Positions 7,988-41,544 of a stretch of DNA of 41,544 bases are shown here, in pieces. The notes under the pieces are model-generated. The model saw nothing but the letters and a program-made list of their open reading frames with translations, was not told where the DNA came from and searched no databases. Every line of letters begins with the position of its first letter. Position 1 is the stretch's first letter. Source of the stretch: Candidatus Woesearchaeota archaeon (lineage in GTDB: Archaea > Nanobdellota > Nanobdellia > Woesearchaeales > GW2011-AR4); NCBI GenBank assembly GCA_016184145.1, contig JACPDF010000026.1:1-41544 (forward strand), in the 5' to 3' direction. The position numbers were made by a program, and so were the translations under genes.

Positions 7988-8830
7988 ATGCAAATAGCAC
8001 TAATATCCTCAACAAAAGATCCCGCATCTGTTAACATTAAAGAAATTAACATTAAAGAAACCCTTCTCAATGATTTTAAATTTGTTAAATTAGAAAATAA
8101 ATTTAACAATAATGATGTCTATGGGTATTTGATTGGGAACAAAGATGTAAAATTATATACTATTAATTCTGAGCTGATATTTGCTGATGATTTGGACAAA
8201 AAAATTGATGCTGATGTGCTTATTTTTCTGTCAAAACATAAGGCAGCAGATGGAAGGGCTTCTTTGACATGCCATCCTATTGGGAATTTTGGGGCTAGTG
8301 AGAAAGGCGGGAAAGAAAAAACCCTATGTACTTGTCCAAGTTCTTTGCTGAAGGAAATACTAATTGAACTGAGCAAAAATGTTGAGAATACTGAGTATGA
8401 AGCCACATTGGAATCAACACATCACGGACCTTCCATGGGCAAGCCATTGTTATTTTTTGAACTCGGAAGTACTGAAAAGCATTGGAATGATAAGAATGGG
8501 GCTAAAATTTATGTAAAAACCTTGATGAATGTTTTGCATCAGGAAAATAAATCATATGAAAGCGTTTTTGTTATTGGCGGCCCACATTACAACCATGTTG
8601 CCAACAAGGCAATGCTGAATACAGGCTATGCAGTTGGCCATATATGCCCAAAGCATAATTTAGAAAATCTTGATGAGGAAATGCTGAGGCAGGCAATGGA
8701 AAAAATAATCCCGAAGCCGAAATTTGCCCTTTTGGACTGGAAAGGCCTGAGCAAGGAAAAGCAGAGGATTCTTAAAATGCTGGAGAAGAACAGTATCAAG
8801 TATGAAAGAAGCGACAGGTTTTTTGGATAA
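7988..8830 (+). CDS. dtdA: D-aminoacyl-tRNA deacylase (DtdA/GEK1 family)
   Basis: STHHGPSMGKPLLFFELGSTEKHW, VIGGPHYNHVANKAMLNTGYAVGHICPKHNLENL, LLDWKGL. Confidence 0.9.
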   Translation: MQIALISSTKDPASVNIKEINIKETLLNDFKFVKLENKFNNNDVYGYLIGNKDVKLYTINSELIFADDLDKKIDADVLIFLSKHKAADGRASLTCHPIGNFGASEKGGKEKTLCTCPSSLLKEILIELSKNVENTEYEATLESTHHGPSMGKPLLFFELGSTEKHWNDKNGAKIYVKTLMNVLHQENKSYESVFVIGGPHYNHVANKAMLNTGYAVGHICPKHNLENLDEEMLRQAMEKIIPKPKFALLDWKGLSKEKQRILKMLEKNSIKYERSDRFFG

Positions 8831-8865
8831 TAGTGTAAAGTTAAATTAAGGGTATTATTTTTAAA

Positions 8866-9051
8866 TTTTCAATCCGCCTTCGGCGATTATGGGGTAATTA
8901 GTTTACGTATCTTCTATTTTTAATCTGTTCGCCTTCGGCTCACAATATCTAGTGCTCGGCGTTCGCTTGCAAACATTGCGCTCACGCCTCGCATATCCAT
9001 TGCATCGACTTTTGGCACTTAAGTTGAAATTGTCTGCTAATAGCAAAATTT
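8866..9051 (+). repeat. dispersed intergenic repeat, copy A
   Basis: TTTTCAATCCGCCTTCGGC at 8866-8884, related TTTTAATCTGTTCGCCTTCGGCTCACAATATCTAGTGCTCGGC at 8917-8960, right arm TATCCATTGCAT..GACT..TTG..CTTAA.TTGAAATTGTC....ATAGCAAAATTTA shared with copy B. Confidence 0.8.
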
Positions 9052-9079
9052 ATAAATGAGTTATCACGCAGAAGTTGTC

Positions 9080-10582
9080 ATGAAAAATATAAAGAGGTTT
9101 TTGCTTTTGCAGTCTTTGCTTCTATTCGTTATTCCATATGCCTTTGCCGAGATAAGCATAACTTTGCCTGCTAAGGAAACCTATAATCTGGGAGAAAAAA
9201 TAATGCCAACTATATCGATTAAAGAGGAGCAAAACCATGACGGCTTCTTTAAGCTGCATTTAGTTTGCGATAACTATAATCTGCAGTATTATACAATACC
9301 TATCAAATTGGAGGCAAACATAAGGACTCAGGTGCAGGTCCCGGAACTGCCATTATCCGGCCCGATGATAGGCTCGTGCAGCATTAAGGCAGGCTTGGAC
9401 AAGAATGACGGAACAAATTTTGATGCTGCATCTTCGGCTGGCTTTCTGGTAAGCAATCTAATAAATATAATCACGGAAGAAAACTTGCATTCTGACCCCG
9501 GCAAGGATATTCTAATTCTTGGGGATGTGAGAAAAGCCAGCGGGGAATTGCTGTCAGAAGGGGAACTTTCCATAAATTTCAGGGATGAAAATGAGGGAGG
9601 AAACATAACAGCAGGAAAACTGGAGCATATGCTGCATATAGATGCCAATACTGAAGCAGGAGAATATGCAATAAATATTGCTATAAGAGACAAAGAAGGC
9701 AACCTTGGAGACAAAATAGTGAAGATCGAAATACCCCAGATACCGACAAGCATCCAGAATGAGATTGAGAATGATGTGCTTGCGCCAGGCGATACTTTAA
9801 AGGCAAAGATTGCCCTTTATGACCACACAAATAAGCTGATAAATGTCAGCAACATAAATGTAAAGGTCTTTGATCCTGATGAGAGCCCTATTGCTGAAAA
9901 AGAAGTTCAAAGTTCAGGTCAATTTGAGCTTGGAATTGAAAAACACCAGGCGCCAGGAGTTTACTTCTTATTTAGCTCGTATGAGAATGTAGATCAGCAG
10001 AGCACTTTTACAGTGGTTATGGTAAAGAAAATTGCAATGAAGCAGGAAAACAACATCGTGCATATCGAGAATACAGGCAATGTAAATTATGATGACGAGA
10101 CAACCATAATACTTGAAGGCAATGATAAAAAATACCTGATAAACAAAAAATTGGATCTTAAGCCCGGGGAAAGTATTGAAATAGACCTTTCAAAGGAAGT
10201 GCCTGGAGGTACCTATGATGTAATACTGCCAGAAGAAGCTGTTGAGCAAGAAGAGCCTGCTGGAGAAAATATCATAGCCAATGAAACCAGCCAGGAATCA
10301 TTTGAGGCTGCAAATGTGATAAAAGATGTTCTGATTGAGGACAAGAGGAATGCCATAAAGAAGATTGCTGATGGTTTAAGGGCTGTTACAGGCGCTGTCG
10401 TAAGCACCGCTAGTTATATTGTCTCAAAGCCCAAGCTGGCTTCCATAATCCTTGTCACAATAATCCTTGGCATCATAACCTATTACAGCAGGGATTATAT
10501 AACACAAAGAATAAAAGGGAATAAGCCAGGAGGAGAAACATCAAAGCTGTTCAAGGACTTTAATTTCAAGGAGAAACAATAA
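9080..10582 (+). CDS. secreted/membrane-anchored hypothetical surface protein
   Basis: Signal peptide MKNIKRFLLLQSLLLFVIPYAFA from internal ATG 9080; beta-rich ectodomain; C-terminal TM LASIILVTIILGIITYY; ORF-track start 9056. Confidence 0.75.
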   Translation: MKNIKRFLLLQSLLLFVIPYAFAEISITLPAKETYNLGEKIMPTISIKEEQNHDGFFKLHLVCDNYNLQYYTIPIKLEANIRTQVQVPELPLSGPMIGSCSIKAGLDKNDGTNFDAASSAGFLVSNLINIITEENLHSDPGKDILILGDVRKASGELLSEGELSINFRDENEGGNITAGKLEHMLHIDANTEAGEYAINIAIRDKEGNLGDKIVKIEIPQIPTSIQNEIENDVLAPGDTLKAKIALYDHTNKLINVSNINVKVFDPDESPIAEKEVQSSGQFELGIEKHQAPGVYFLFSSYENVDQQSTFTVVMVKKIAMKQENNIVHIENTGNVNYDDETTIILEGNDKKYLINKKLDLKPGESIEIDLSKEVPGGTYDVILPEEAVEQEEPAGENIIANETSQESFEAANVIKDVLIEDKRNAIKKIADGLRAVTGAVVSTASYIVSKPKLASIILVTIILGIITYYSRDYITQRIKGNKPGGETSKLFKDFNFKEKQ

Positions 10583-11920: not shown

Positions 11921-12886
11921 ATGGTAGTAGATAGCCAGAATATGCTTGGGGTAATAAAGGATTTTTCTAAGCAATGCAGGGAAGCTTTAGCCCTGCCGAA
12001 GGGCCTTTCTGTTCAAGGAGAGGTAAAGAATATTGTAGTTGCGGGAATGGGGGGAAGCGCGGTTGGCGGCGACTTGCTGAGGAGCTACATGCGTGATTCC
12101 AAAATACCGGTTTATGTAAGCAGGGACTATAAAGTGCCAAATTTTGTTGACAGCAGCAGCCTGGTTTTTGCTGTTTCATATTCAGGAAACACAGAAGAAA
12201 CCTTGTCTTCTTATTATGATGCCTATGAAAAGAGGGCAAAGATAATTGGCATAACCTCCGGAGGCAAATTGGCAGATGAATGCGACAAAGTAGTTAAGGT
12301 GCCTTCCGGCTTGCAGCCAAGAGCAGCCTTAGGCTATTTATTCTTTCCAATGCTCGGAATATTGCACAATACCGGAATTGCAAAAGTAAGGAATGATGAT
12401 TTAAACGAGATGCTTGAGACTCTAAAAAATACAAAGAAGTTTGACGAGCTTGGAGAGGCTCTGTCAAAAAAATTAAGGGGCAAAATACCAATAATTTACG
12501 CCTCTGAGGCTTTAGGAGCAATAGCCTTCAGATGGAAGACGCAGATAAACGAGAACGCAAAATTGCCGGCTTTCTATAATGTTTTCTCTGAGATGAACCA
12601 TAATGAAATAGCGGGCTACCAGGGGATGGACGGCAAATTTGCCGCTGTTTTGCTCAGGGACAAGAACGACAGGCAGAACATAAAAAGGCGCATGGACATA
12701 TGCAAGGAAATAATGGAAGAAAGAATGACAGTTGAAGAAGTGCATACTCAAGGCAGCGGCTTGCTTGCAAGGATGTTCTCCACAGTATATTTAGGCGACT
12801 TTGTCTCTTACTACCTGGCATTATGGAACAGGGTAGATCCAACTCCAGTGCATATTATCGAGAATATGAAGAGGAAGCTGGGATAA
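11921..12886 (+). CDS. bifunctional phosphoglucose/phosphomannose isomerase
   Basis: VVAGMGGSAVGGDLLRSYM, VSYSGNTEETLSSYYDA, SEMNHNEIAGYQG. Confidence 0.9.
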   Translation: MVVDSQNMLGVIKDFSKQCREALALPKGLSVQGEVKNIVVAGMGGSAVGGDLLRSYMRDSKIPVYVSRDYKVPNFVDSSSLVFAVSYSGNTEETLSSYYDAYEKRAKIIGITSGGKLADECDKVVKVPSGLQPRAALGYLFFPMLGILHNTGIAKVRNDDLNEMLETLKNTKKFDELGEALSKKLRGKIPIIYASEALGAIAFRWKTQINENAKLPAFYNVFSEMNHNEIAGYQGMDGKFAAVLLRDKNDRQNIKRRMDICKEIMEERMTVEEVHTQGSGLLARMFSTVYLGDFVSYYLALWNRVDPTPVHIIENMKRKLG

Positions 12887-12920
12887 GGTAAAATCAAGTT
12901 AAGTGTGCTATAATTACTAT

Positions 12921-13050
12921 TTTTCAATACGCCTTCGGCAAATTCTAGTGCGAAGCCTCGCTGTCTTGCCACATCGCTCGGCTTCGTATATCCATTGCAT
13001 TGACTCTTGACGCTTAAATTGAAATTGTCCTTGGATAGCAAAATTTAAAA
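12921..13050 (+). repeat. dispersed intergenic repeat, copy B
   Basis: TTTTCAATACGCCTTCGGC 12921-12939; right arm TATATCCATTGCATTGACTCTTGACGCTTAAATTGAAATTGTCCTTGGATAGCAAAATTTA closely matches copy A. Confidence 0.8.
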
Positions 13051-13083
13051 TAAATAGGATTTATTCTTATTATTTGGGGGCAA

Positions 13084-15147
13084 ATGCTGCTTAAATCAAT
13101 TAAACTAAACAATATCAGGAGCTATCTTAATCAAAGTATAGATTTTCCTATAGGAAGTTTGCTTCTTTCCGGGGATATTGGCTCTGGAAAAAGCACTATT
13201 TTACTGGCTGTCGAATTTGCCTTGTTTGGCTCCAAGCCAAGTGAATTACCGGCTTCTTCTTTGCTGAGGCATGGCAAGAATGAGGGCTTTGTCGAGCTAA
13301 AATTTGACATGGAAGGCAAAGAGATTGTGATAAAAAGAACGCTGAAAAAAGGAAAAGATGCTATAAAGCAGGAAACTGGGTATATAATAGCTAATGACGC
13401 AAAAAAAGAGCTAAGCCCTGTTGAGATGAAAGCAGAGGTTTTTGACTTATTGGGCTATCCAAGGGATTTGGTTTCTAAGGGCAAGGATTTGATTTATAGG
13501 TATACAGTGTACACACCGCAGGAAGAGATGAAGCGCATTTTGATGGAAGACAAAGACACGAGGCTTAACACGCTGAGAAAAGTGTTTAACATTGACCGCT
13601 ATAAAAAGATAAAGGAAAATTCTGCTGTTTTCATAAGGGCCTTAAAGGAAAAAAGAAGGGAAGTGGAAGGATTTGTCTCTGACTTAGAGGAAAAGAAGAA
13701 GGAAAAAGACGGCATGGACAAGGAGGTTTCCGAGCTGGATGAAAAAATAAAAGAAATTATTCCCAAAGCGGAAAAGGCAAAAAAATCCGTAAAAGAAAAA
13801 AAAGAGAATATTTCCGCTTTTGAGAAAAAAATCAATGAGCTTAACAAATTAAAGAGCAATCTGGATGTCCTTGAAACAGAATTAAAGAATTTGGTCAATG
13901 AAAGGGCAAGGAACAATGATAATATCAGCAGGCTGGCCAAGCAGATTGAAGTTTTGGAAAAGGAATTGGGAAAGGAAATGATAAAGGAGGATAAGCCATT
14001 GAAGGAAAAGATGAATAATATTGAAAAAGAGATTAAAAATATCAACCAAGAAATTGACAGGGCAAAGAAAAAAATCAATGAGTTTCAGTTTAATAAAAAT
14101 AAATCCGAAGACATAATAAAAAAGATTTCTGCAATTGAAAAGTGCCCCTTATGCCTGCAGAATGTCAGCCATGAGCATAAAAGCTCCATAACAGAAAGGG
14201 AAAATAAGGGCATAGAAGAAGCCAATGAAACTATAAAGCTTTATTCTGAAAAAGAAAAAGAGCTTAAAGCCAAGCTGGAAACAATGGAAAAAGAAAAAGA
14301 GGAGCTAAGGAAGGCAGAAAACAAAATTGAGCTGGTGAAATTAAAAATAAAAAATCTTAATGAGAAAAAAGAAGAGGTTATGGTTATTGGGAAGAGTCAG
14401 GAGCAGATAAAAAAGAATATCGGGCAGGTAAATGTAAAAAAAGCCGAGGTTAATGAAAAGGTTAATGAGATGAAAGATGTTGAGGAGCAGTATAGGAAAG
14501 CAAAAATGGATTTGGATAAGGCTTTGGAGGAAGAAAAAAAACTTGACATAGAAAAAAACGGCTTTGAAAGGGAAAAAGAGTCGCTGAGCAGGATTAGCAA
14601 GGTTTTGGAAAAAGAAATTGACAAAAAAATTGAGTCAAAGGGAAGATTAAGCTATTTTGCTGATATGCAGAACTGGCTGGAAGGCTATTTTGTCAATTTG
14701 ATGGGCACGATGGAAAAGCATGTTATGCTCCAAGTGCATCGTGAATTTGATGAATTGTTCAAGGAATGGTTCAACATTTTGATAGAAGACGAGGCAATCT
14801 CTGTAAGGCTGGATGACGAGTTTACCCCAATAGTTGAGCAGAACGGCTATGAAACAAGCATAGAAAGCCTGAGCGGAGGGGAAAAGACTTCTGTTGCTTT
14901 GTCTTACAGATTAGCCTTGAACAAGGTAATAAATGATGTTGTTTCGGGAATAAAGACTAAAGATATCTTGATGCTGGACGAGCCTACTGACGGCTTTAGC
15001 TCGGAGCAATTGGACAAGGTAAGGGATGTCTTAAACCAGTTAAATATGAAGCAAATTATCATTGTAAGCCATGAATCAAAGATAGAGAGCTTTGTGGACA
15101 AGGTTATAAGGGTGGATAAGCAGGAGCATGTGAGCTCAGTGGCTTAA
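13084..15147 (+). CDS. rad50: Rad50/SMC-like ATPase with zinc hook
   Basis: Walker A GDIGSGKST, coiled coils around CPLC hook, ABC signature SLSGGEKTSVALSYRLAL, Walker B DILMLDEPTDGFS. Confidence 0.9.
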   Translation: MLLKSIKLNNIRSYLNQSIDFPIGSLLLSGDIGSGKSTILLAVEFALFGSKPSELPASSLLRHGKNEGFVELKFDMEGKEIVIKRTLKKGKDAIKQETGYIIANDAKKELSPVEMKAEVFDLLGYPRDLVSKGKDLIYRYTVYTPQEEMKRILMEDKDTRLNTLRKVFNIDRYKKIKENSAVFIRALKEKRREVEGFVSDLEEKKKEKDGMDKEVSELDEKIKEIIPKAEKAKKSVKEKKENISAFEKKINELNKLKSNLDVLETELKNLVNERARNNDNISRLAKQIEVLEKELGKEMIKEDKPLKEKMNNIEKEIKNINQEIDRAKKKINEFQFNKNKSEDIIKKISAIEKCPLCLQNVSHEHKSSITERENKGIEEANETIKLYSEKEKELKAKLETMEKEKEELRKAENKIELVKLKIKNLNEKKEEVMVIGKSQEQIKKNIGQVNVKKAEVNEKVNEMKDVEEQYRKAKMDLDKALEEEKKLDIEKNGFEREKESLSRISKVLEKEIDKKIESKGRLSYFADMQNWLEGYFVNLMGTMEKHVMLQVHREFDELFKEWFNILIEDEAISVRLDDEFTPIVEQNGYETSIESLSGGEKTSVALSYRLALNKVINDVVSGIKTKDILMLDEPTDGFSSEQLDKVRDVLNQLNMKQIIIVSHESKIESFVDKVIRVDKQEHVSSVA

Positions 15148-23635: not shown

Positions 23636-23960
23636 GTATATAAAGGACTTATGCCATTAGCTTGCTTATACACCAAAACTAAAACACCCCTTGGTTTATG
23701 ATATTGAGGCAGGCAGGGAAAAGATCTCCGAAAAAAAACTTCCCTGCCCCACCCCCAATTTCAGCGATTATAAGGATATTAAAAAAATCAGTTTAAAAAA
23801 AAACGGCCGCCCAATGCGGCAGAACAGAAGGTTGATACCCATCTGCTGGAAACAGCAGCGAGATGCGAGTGAGCTCGTTGCGAACTCGCTCACAATTCAC
23901 AGGTTCAAATCCTGCAAAGGATAAACTTTTTGGGTGAGACTCCCAGCCGCGGCGCGATCA
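23636..23960 (+). ncRNA. candidate structured non-coding RNA locus (identity unresolved)
   Basis: TATA-like GTATATAAAGG near 23636; hairpins GGCAGGGAA/TTCCCTGCC, GCCGC-CCAAT-GCGGC (23806-23820), CTGCTG-GAAA-CAGCAG (23843-23858), long palindrome 23860-23900, T-arm-like CAGGTTCAAATCCTG (23900-23914); no convincing protein. Confidence 0.4.
23860..23900 (-). repeat. inverted copy of the hairpin module from repeat C
   Basis: Reverse complement GTGAATTGTGAGCGAGTTCGCAACGAGCTCACTCGCATCTC matches 26140-26186 except for a shorter loop. Confidence 0.9.
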
Positions 23961-25878: not shown

Positions 25879-25967
25879 ATTAATCTCCTTATACCTATAA
25901 ACCGAGAATTTAAACTTTTCTATAAAATAGAACAGGAGCAATTGTGCAGCTTTATGGATAACTATGA

Positions 25968-26242
25968 TTTTCAATCCGCCTTCGGCAGATTATAGTGCGA
26001 GAGTGAATTGTGAGCGAGTGAACAATTTCATCGTGTGCCTAATTTTTACTGCTCGCTCACTCGCATCTCACACGCTCCCTGCCAATACGCTCAAGCCTCG
26101 CGTTTGATTACAGATGCATTCGAGGCAAAAATTTATTGAGTGAATTGTGAGCGAGTTCGCTCTAAAAACGAGCTCACTCGCATCTCACAAAAATTTTTGC
26201 CGAGTGTAATTATTGTGAGCGAAGCGAACGGATTGAATTTTG
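25968..26242 (+). repeat. dispersed intergenic repeat, copy C, with terminal inverted repeats and two internal hairpin modules
   Basis: TTTTCAATCCGCCTTCGGC 25968-25986; CGGATTGAATTTTG 26229-26242 in inverted orientation; GAGTGAATTGTGAGCGAGT at 26001 and 26138; GCTCACTCGCATCTCACA ending 26072 and 26189. Confidence 0.85.
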
Positions 26243-26313
26243 TCCTAAAATTAATATTGCTTACAACAAATACAATAAATTTAAATATAAATTATCAAAT
26301 TAAAAAAAGCGAA

Positions 26314-27093
26314 ATGGCAGATCCGGAAGTTGATGACATCTTTAAGGATTTTGAGTACAAGGTCAAGGGCAAGAAAGAAACAAAAGAGGCTCCAAAACAG
26401 CCAGTAAGGCAATTTGTTGATGATGAGGAAGAGGAAAAGCCCAAAAAACAGCCTGTAAAATACGAGAGATTGCCGCCAAAAAGGCTGCCTAATTATGAAA
26501 AAATAGCGTATATTGCGATAATTCTTGTTTTAGTTGCTTATACTGCAATTGACTGGATGTATTATCATAATGAAGATAATAATAGCGAGAATGCTAGTAA
26601 GATAAGCGTCAAAGTAGCAACTAATGCTACAGAAGCAAACAAGACTGCTGCAGCAAAAAATGAAACAGTTGCAATAGTTAATAAATCTGCGGAGAAAGAG
26701 GAGAACGAGACTGTTAAAGAGGAAGGGAAGCAGCTTTCAGGAATTGTTACCTTAACTATAGACAAGATTTACACCAGTTTAAGCAAGAGCATTAATGATA
26801 CCGGATATATAGACAAGATTGACTTTACTATAGATAACGGCAAAGACAAGGCATTGAAGCCGAGAGTGGACGTTTATGCATATGACAAGGAAATTGAGGA
26901 AAGCTGGCAGACAAGGAGCAGAGGAGTGTATTTGGGAACTGCGATTGAGCCAGGAGGAATGTATGCAGGAAGCATAAGCCTGTCCCCAAAAACCTTCAAG
27001 AACCTTAACATAAATAAAAACGTAAGATTGAACCTGAATGATACGGATACTGGGTTTATAGCTGCAGTTAATGAGGAAGTGGTTATTTCTTAA
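26314..27093 (+). CDS. single-pass membrane protein, hypothetical
   Basis: MADPEVDDIFKDFEYKVKGKKET..., TM IAYIAIILVLVAYTAIDWMYY, extracellular beta-rich domain; ORF track start 26140 runs through the repeat. Confidence 0.75.
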   Translation: MADPEVDDIFKDFEYKVKGKKETKEAPKQPVRQFVDDEEEEKPKKQPVKYERLPPKRLPNYEKIAYIAIILVLVAYTAIDWMYYHNEDNNSENASKISVKVATNATEANKTAAAKNETVAIVNKSAEKEENETVKEEGKQLSGIVTLTIDKIYTSLSKSINDTGYIDKIDFTIDNGKDKALKPRVDVYAYDKEIEESWQTRSRGVYLGTAIEPGGMYAGSISLSPKTFKNLNINKNVRLNLNDTDTGFIAAVNEEVVIS

Positions 27094-41471: not shown

Positions 41472-41544
41472 AATTCCCGTTGATCCTGCGGGAGGTTGCT
41501 GCTATTGGGATTCGATTAAGCCATGCAAGTCCAGGGGTTCTTCG
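41472..41544 (+). rRNA. 16S rRNA, 5' end only (truncated by window)
   Basis: AATTCCCGTTGATCCTGCGGGAGGTTGCTGCTATTGGGATTCGATTAAGCCATGCAAGTCCAGGGG matches archaeal 16S 5' end consensus. Confidence 0.95.

Follow-up and report, generated by a model that had tools for sequence, protein, structure and literature searches.

A few eukaryotic retrotransposons are known to insert beside RNA polymerase promoters with base-pair precision. The yeast elements Ty3 and Ty1 insert at a fixed place near promoters, Ty3 via TFIIIB, which contains TBP. Among open-access papers, no earlier report was found of such precise targeting of archaeal core promoters, nor of the same behaviour in archaeal or bacterial DNA transposons; ISfinder and subscription papers lay outside this scope, and the result is no proof of absence. 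As classes of mobile DNA, MITEs and IS5 elements are already known. Prokaryotic MITEs have been reviewed, among them archaeal ones from Sulfolobus, Halobacterium and Haloquadratum, and the Correia elements of Neisseria are MITEs that lie directly upstream of genes and carry promoters (PMC10969869). REP and BIME palindromes are described as having REP-associated Y1 transposases (PMC2817692, PMC3733652). The elements analysed here resemble prokaryotic MITEs in being short and gene-less, with inverted termini, target-site duplications and bursts of near-identical copies, but differ from them in their fixed base-pair distance to a TATA box and, in copies of the A/B type described below, in their internal hairpin modules. 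With Ty3 and Ty1 they share the fixed place of insertion beside promoters, a functional likeness that implies no kinship; the yeast elements, in contrast, are retrotransposons with integrases, are associated with RNA polymerase III promoters and have another duplication length.

The window, i.e. the whole stretch of 41 544 nucleotides that was analysed, carries at its right end (41473-41544) the first part of an archaeal 16S rRNA gene, its sole Rfam match, and the genome is thus archaeal. In a first-pass annotation of the window, three copies of a dispersed repeat had been described, here designated A, B and C. The 5' sequence said to be common to them is present at 8866, 12921 and 25968 as claimed, and a right arm common to A and B was recovered over 70 nt with 81% identity (8986-9055 and 12981-13050). 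A BLAST search of the complete own genome (G000, 1.016 Mb in 38 contigs) with copy A detected copy B (E=3e-13) and an additional copy at C25:20669-20853 (77% over ~190 nt, E=3e-37), and CAATMCGCCTTCGGC was found six times at two or fewer mismatches, four times exactly, in the 1.016-Mb genome. These further copies and match statistics establish a dispersed family that is more than chance. The limits previously assigned to the copies, however, are not the element ends, which lie at 8834-9034 (A), 12887-13029 (B) and ~25937-26265 (C), and the grouping of all three in one family holds for an internal module present in each but not for the termini, as those of C are unlike those of A and B.

Copy A, thus redefined, is a MITE of 201 bp (8834-9034, plus strand) with the ends TGTAAAGTTAAATTAAG... 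and ...CTTAAGTTGAAATTGTC, flanked by the 9-bp target-site duplications GGATAATAG on the left (8825-8833) and TGCTAATAG on the right (9035-9043). Copy B, of 143 bp (12887-13029, plus strand), has the ends GGTAAAATCAAGTTAAGTGTG... and ...CGCTTAAATTGAAATTGTC and lies between CTGGGATAA (12878-12886) and CTTGGATAG (13030-13038). In both cases the two duplications are identical at seven of nine positions, and the left one holds the stop codon of the upstream gene (TAA for copy A), indicating that the original intergenic gap was very small. Extension outward from the earlier limits, done for A, B and another two copies, revealed inverted termini of ~20 bp, and a search of the own genome with the terminal pattern yielded nine matches versus none for the reversed pattern. 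Both ends were present in five elements, namely A, B, C9:16426-16569, C25:20687-20874 and a 79-bp element at C17:15903 which precedes a tRNA gene; the direct repeats of the last three agree at nine, eight and nine of nine positions, respectively. At the C17 locus (L071, 1631-1852), two tRNA genes that seem to contain small introns are located directly behind the insertion. The inverted termini and the constant 9-bp duplication length of these five elements, both of which recur in the relative G256 discussed below, and the size of 79-201 bp, into which no transposase or other gene fits, bear out the earlier description of A and B as MITE-like. Judged by their sequence, A and B are small gene-less transposons that share one precise insertion point, located a few base pairs in front of a promoter.

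In all five elements of the own genome the right duplication is followed, after a short BRE-like spacer of 5 bp (7 bp in one), by a TATA box. For copy A, the spacer CAAAA and the TATA box TTTATAAA occupy positions 9044-9056 (plus strand) with a likely ATG at 9080; for copy B, CAAAA and TTTAAAAT occupy 13039-13051 (plus strand), and the ATG at 13084 opens the gene of a Rad50/SbcC-like ATPase. Measured from the first TATA base, the likely gene starts lie at 31 nt (A), 40 nt (B) and 34 nt (C), distances that fit leaderless or short-leader archaeal transcripts. Given this order of features, the terminal part of the right arm in A and B resolves into inverted repeat, duplication and BRE/TATA of the target gene. 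The right arm does end at a TATA box, as had been noted, but this promoter belongs to the target and is not the element's own.

It had also been proposed that the repeats carry or supply promoters, in which case the TATA box would be part of the repeat and travel along with it. The stretch AGCAAAATTTA common to A and B around the TATA box would agree with this, as would the promoters reported in Correia elements (PMC10969869). However, the duplication separates element and TATA box and thereby identifies the promoter as a pre-existing target, the TATA and spacer sequences vary between copies, and among the G256 copies the TATA box is found on either side of the element, all of which make a travelling promoter highly improbable. 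Correia elements and the present ones are both MITEs placed directly upstream of genes, but the promoter is carried in the former and targeted in the latter. A regulatory RNA leader, another suggestion of the first-pass annotation, is unlikely, since an element upstream of the TATA box is absent from the downstream gene's own transcript, and A and B fold no better than shuffles. The suggestion of a shared regulon site gives way to targeted insertion, which accounts for the common arrangement. Nothing was found that would support a regulon or a leader RNA, and Rfam covariance models matched no known leader or riboswitch in the window.

An independent replicate of this arrangement was provided by G256. 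When 378 genomes of the class were searched for the terminal sequence at one mismatch or fewer, it was detected only in the own genome, G192 and G256, the last of which contains ~41 copies of a related element of ~143 bp, for the most part with 91-100% identity to the copy used as query. Exact 9-bp duplications flank 20 of the 27 complete copies, none of which shows an exact duplication of 7, 8, 10 or 11 bp, and none of 702 mismatched pairings of left and right flanks agreed. With the TATA box defined as TTTAWAWA at one mismatch or fewer, a TATA box follows the duplication at a distance of exactly 5 bp in 21 of these 27 copies (13 on the right, 8 on the left) and at +4 or +6 in none, against a mean background count of 0.22 over offsets 9-35 (binomial 5e-39, the sites being taken as independent insertions, as supported by their differing duplications). 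That elements face either way with respect to the promoter is a further argument against its being a component of the element. In the spacer, positions 2 and 3 are almost always A, as would be expected of a BRE, and an ORF start was found for most sites, usually 24-34 nt past the TATA box.

Insertion at random, with survival only just upstream of core promoters where it would do the least harm in a compact genome, is in keeping with the short intergenic space and with the observed sites, which spare both gene and core promoter. Yet such a process should leave a broad range of distances, and the one-base peak seen in G256 is not expected from random insertion plus selection, which we therefore regard as very unlikely compared with insertion directed to the promoter. 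A comparison of G256 and G192 loci yielded no empty orthologous site, the shared sites being either occupied in both genomes or too diverged. An element in a Candidatus Woesearchaeota assembly (L102, 4655-4882), the sole named genome whose exact terminal match resembles a true copy, has the same termini, a wholly different interior and the opposite orientation to the nearest TATA box. The host of the window may likewise belong to Candidatus Woesearchaeota. A single match of the terminal pattern in viral contigs, situated within a coding gene and without a partner end, was ascribed to chance, as was a Bacteroidetes match with one end only (L103).

The GC-rich part of the repeats proved to be a separate two-hairpin module composed of TTCAATCCG, hairpin 1 and TCGGC-stem-TGCCA-stem'-GCCTCG. 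In copy A the complete module lies at 8919-8991 (plus strand), and a partial module starts at 8866. When A and C were combined as a query, matches were obtained in 31 of 36 family genomes. Covariation is strong in stem 2 of the module, with 38 double-change cells versus 10.8 in shuffles (score 0.494 versus 0.104), and 87.5% of its cells are paired versus 64.4% in shuffles; this covariation indicates that the module is maintained for its structure, whether as RNA or as single-stranded DNA. Hairpins selected upstream of genes as regulatory or terminator elements, with mobility being incidental, would account for the covariation of stem 2 and for the repetition of the module across the family, but no Rfam match was obtained, the folds of whole A and B do not exceed those of shuffles (z 0.95 and -1.23, respectively), and the duplications and the spacing are left unexplained. 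We consider this explanation unlikely, although a regulatory or terminator function of the module hairpins could be a secondary role of elements that insert at promoters.

Copy C (25937-26265, plus strand, its ends estimated by comparison with relatives) represents a second repeat type, a long palindrome that has one module at either end, and its fold reached z = -6.9. The right end of C corresponds to a terminus also present in relatives (AGTAAGTGACATTAATTTTAGG...), some of them with a module at either end. A TATA box, TTTAAATA (26280-26287, plus strand), is located 14 bp beyond the estimated end, with a likely ATG at 26314, and a TATA box exactly 14 bp outside was found at five of the 14 ends collected, C included, two of the 14 looking like false matches. 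Copy C probably has the same target preference as A and B; no target-site duplication was recognised for it, and movement by the same route is therefore rated as no more than likely.

Nested in copy C is a 48-bp hairpin repeat, GTGAATTGTGAGCGAG...CTCACTCGCATCTCAC (26140-26188, plus strand), with a second copy in the window at 23860-23900 on the minus strand. It occurs in well over ten copies in the own genome and also in many relatives (further loci L024-L034, L040 and L041), frequently at the apex of other palindromes. At L032 (1385-1615, contig C31 of the own genome) it lies within a stretch of ~230 nt closed by GCCGAGA...TCTCGGC that resembles a structured RNA; neither ARAGORN nor Rfam matched a tRNA or known RNA at this copy or at 23860.

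Both the module and the 48-bp hairpin are palindromes dispersed outside genes and in this respect are similar to REP/BIME sequences. Together with two Y1 matches in the own genome, this would suit REP-like palindromes moved by a Y1 transposase of the IS200/IS605 type. The repeats do not, however, follow the distribution of this enzyme: G001, G023 and G035 have Y1 without repeats, whereas G003, G007 and G008 have repeats without Y1. In addition, A and B have inverted termini and 9-bp duplications, which IS200/IS605 elements are not known to make, and the modules lie inside elements with such duplications, unlike REP/BIME. A Y1 mover is thus hardly probable, and a transposase making 9-bp staggered cuts is preferred.

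Limited profile searches (PF00872, PF03400 and PF01609) detected no transposase with the MITE termini in any genome. As non-autonomous relics are often without a partner, this lowers only the claim to a named one. IS256 (PF00872), which we presumed from the termini, was represented by one fragment only among 36 family genomes, and IS1 (PF03400), prompted by the duplication length of 9 bp, had no match in 40 genomes; PF01797 did not fit either. Transposases matching PF01609 were present in G256, G192, G149, G368 and G412, the match in G256 being weak and frameshifted and better ones occurring in G192, whereas the own genome had no PF01609 match and hence no IS5-type transposase recognised by this profile beside its putatively IS5-derived elements. 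NF033579 (IS5 family) was the best NCBIfam model for L168, L170, L171, L172, L173, L174 and L178, its cut-off being passed by L168 only.

The IS5-type elements of these relatives follow nearly the same target rule. That at L172 has exact duplications, CCAGTCATA, followed by GAAACC-TATATAAA, and an IS5-like MITE at L112 with similar ends (GGCTCTGTTGAAAAAGTC) has exact duplications, CGAAAGCGG, followed by CAAACA-TATTTAAA; L178, L168 and L174, each with one readable end, have a TATA box at +6, +6 and +5, respectively. The TATA box thus begins at +5 or +6 beyond the 9 bp at L112, L168, L172, L174 and L178, as read by eye and with both ends readable in only two. Stacking of two different elements at a single promoter, immediately in front of its TATA box, was observed at L112 (1330-1520), where the IS5-like MITE adjoins the right end of a GGTAAT-type element, and at L172 (820-1780), where a GGTAAT-type end is combined with an IS5-type insertion sequence. 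SWIM-domain IS5-type transposases occur in both MITE-bearing relatives, at L173 (1447-2631, G192 contig C22), with an apparent N-terminal SWIM zinc finger (CTCPDY...KCKH), and at L177 (1097-1750, G256 contig C2), an internally deleted relative in the genome with the MITE burst; neither has GGTAAT ends, and both, candidates by their presence in these two genomes, were discarded as partners. With the IS5-type elements of relatives (IS5 family, NF033579) the present elements share the 9-bp duplications and a nearly equal TATA distance, but not the termini (GGCTCTG type in the IS5-type elements versus GGTAAT type in the MITEs). From the common target rule, tempered by the differing termini, we infer with moderate confidence that an IS5-like enzyme moved the GGTAAT elements. 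No description of promoter targeting by IS5 elements was found in the open-access literature.

Inverted termini, 9-bp duplications, the lack of a gene, dispersal and the fixed spacing of duplication, 5 bp and TATA box can be read directly from the DNA. We are confident that A and B are best explained as MITEs inserted by a DDE-type transposase, with 9-bp staggered cuts, at a fixed place upstream of BRE/TATA. This enzyme, putatively IS5-like, would cut just upstream of the core promoter, which might be recognised through the BRE/TATA sequence itself or through bound TBP/TFB. Insertion would leave the core promoter intact and wedge 140-200 bp of hairpin-rich DNA between the promoter and the upstream gene. 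The element would thereby spare the core promoter while separating it from its former upstream DNA, and may shield the gene from upstream transcription.

The dozens of repetitions of this base-pair-precise rule in related genomes point to mobile DNA with a capacity to seek out archaeal promoters. More speculatively, there may exist an archaeal lineage of DNA transposons, consisting of IS5-like elements and several MITE families and putatively guided by TBP/TFB on BRE-TATA, that inserts upstream of promoters genome-wide with a precision of one base pair. If true, this lineage would be the archaeal DNA-transposon counterpart of the targeting by yeast Ty3, and integration is predicted to depend on TBP/TFB or on the BRE/TATA sequence, which is testable. 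Each insertion delimits the core promoter on its upstream side and is thus a natural promoter footprint, useful in organisms known mainly from metagenomes. The finding also offers a possible explanation of how bursts of mobile DNA can be tolerated in very compact genomes.
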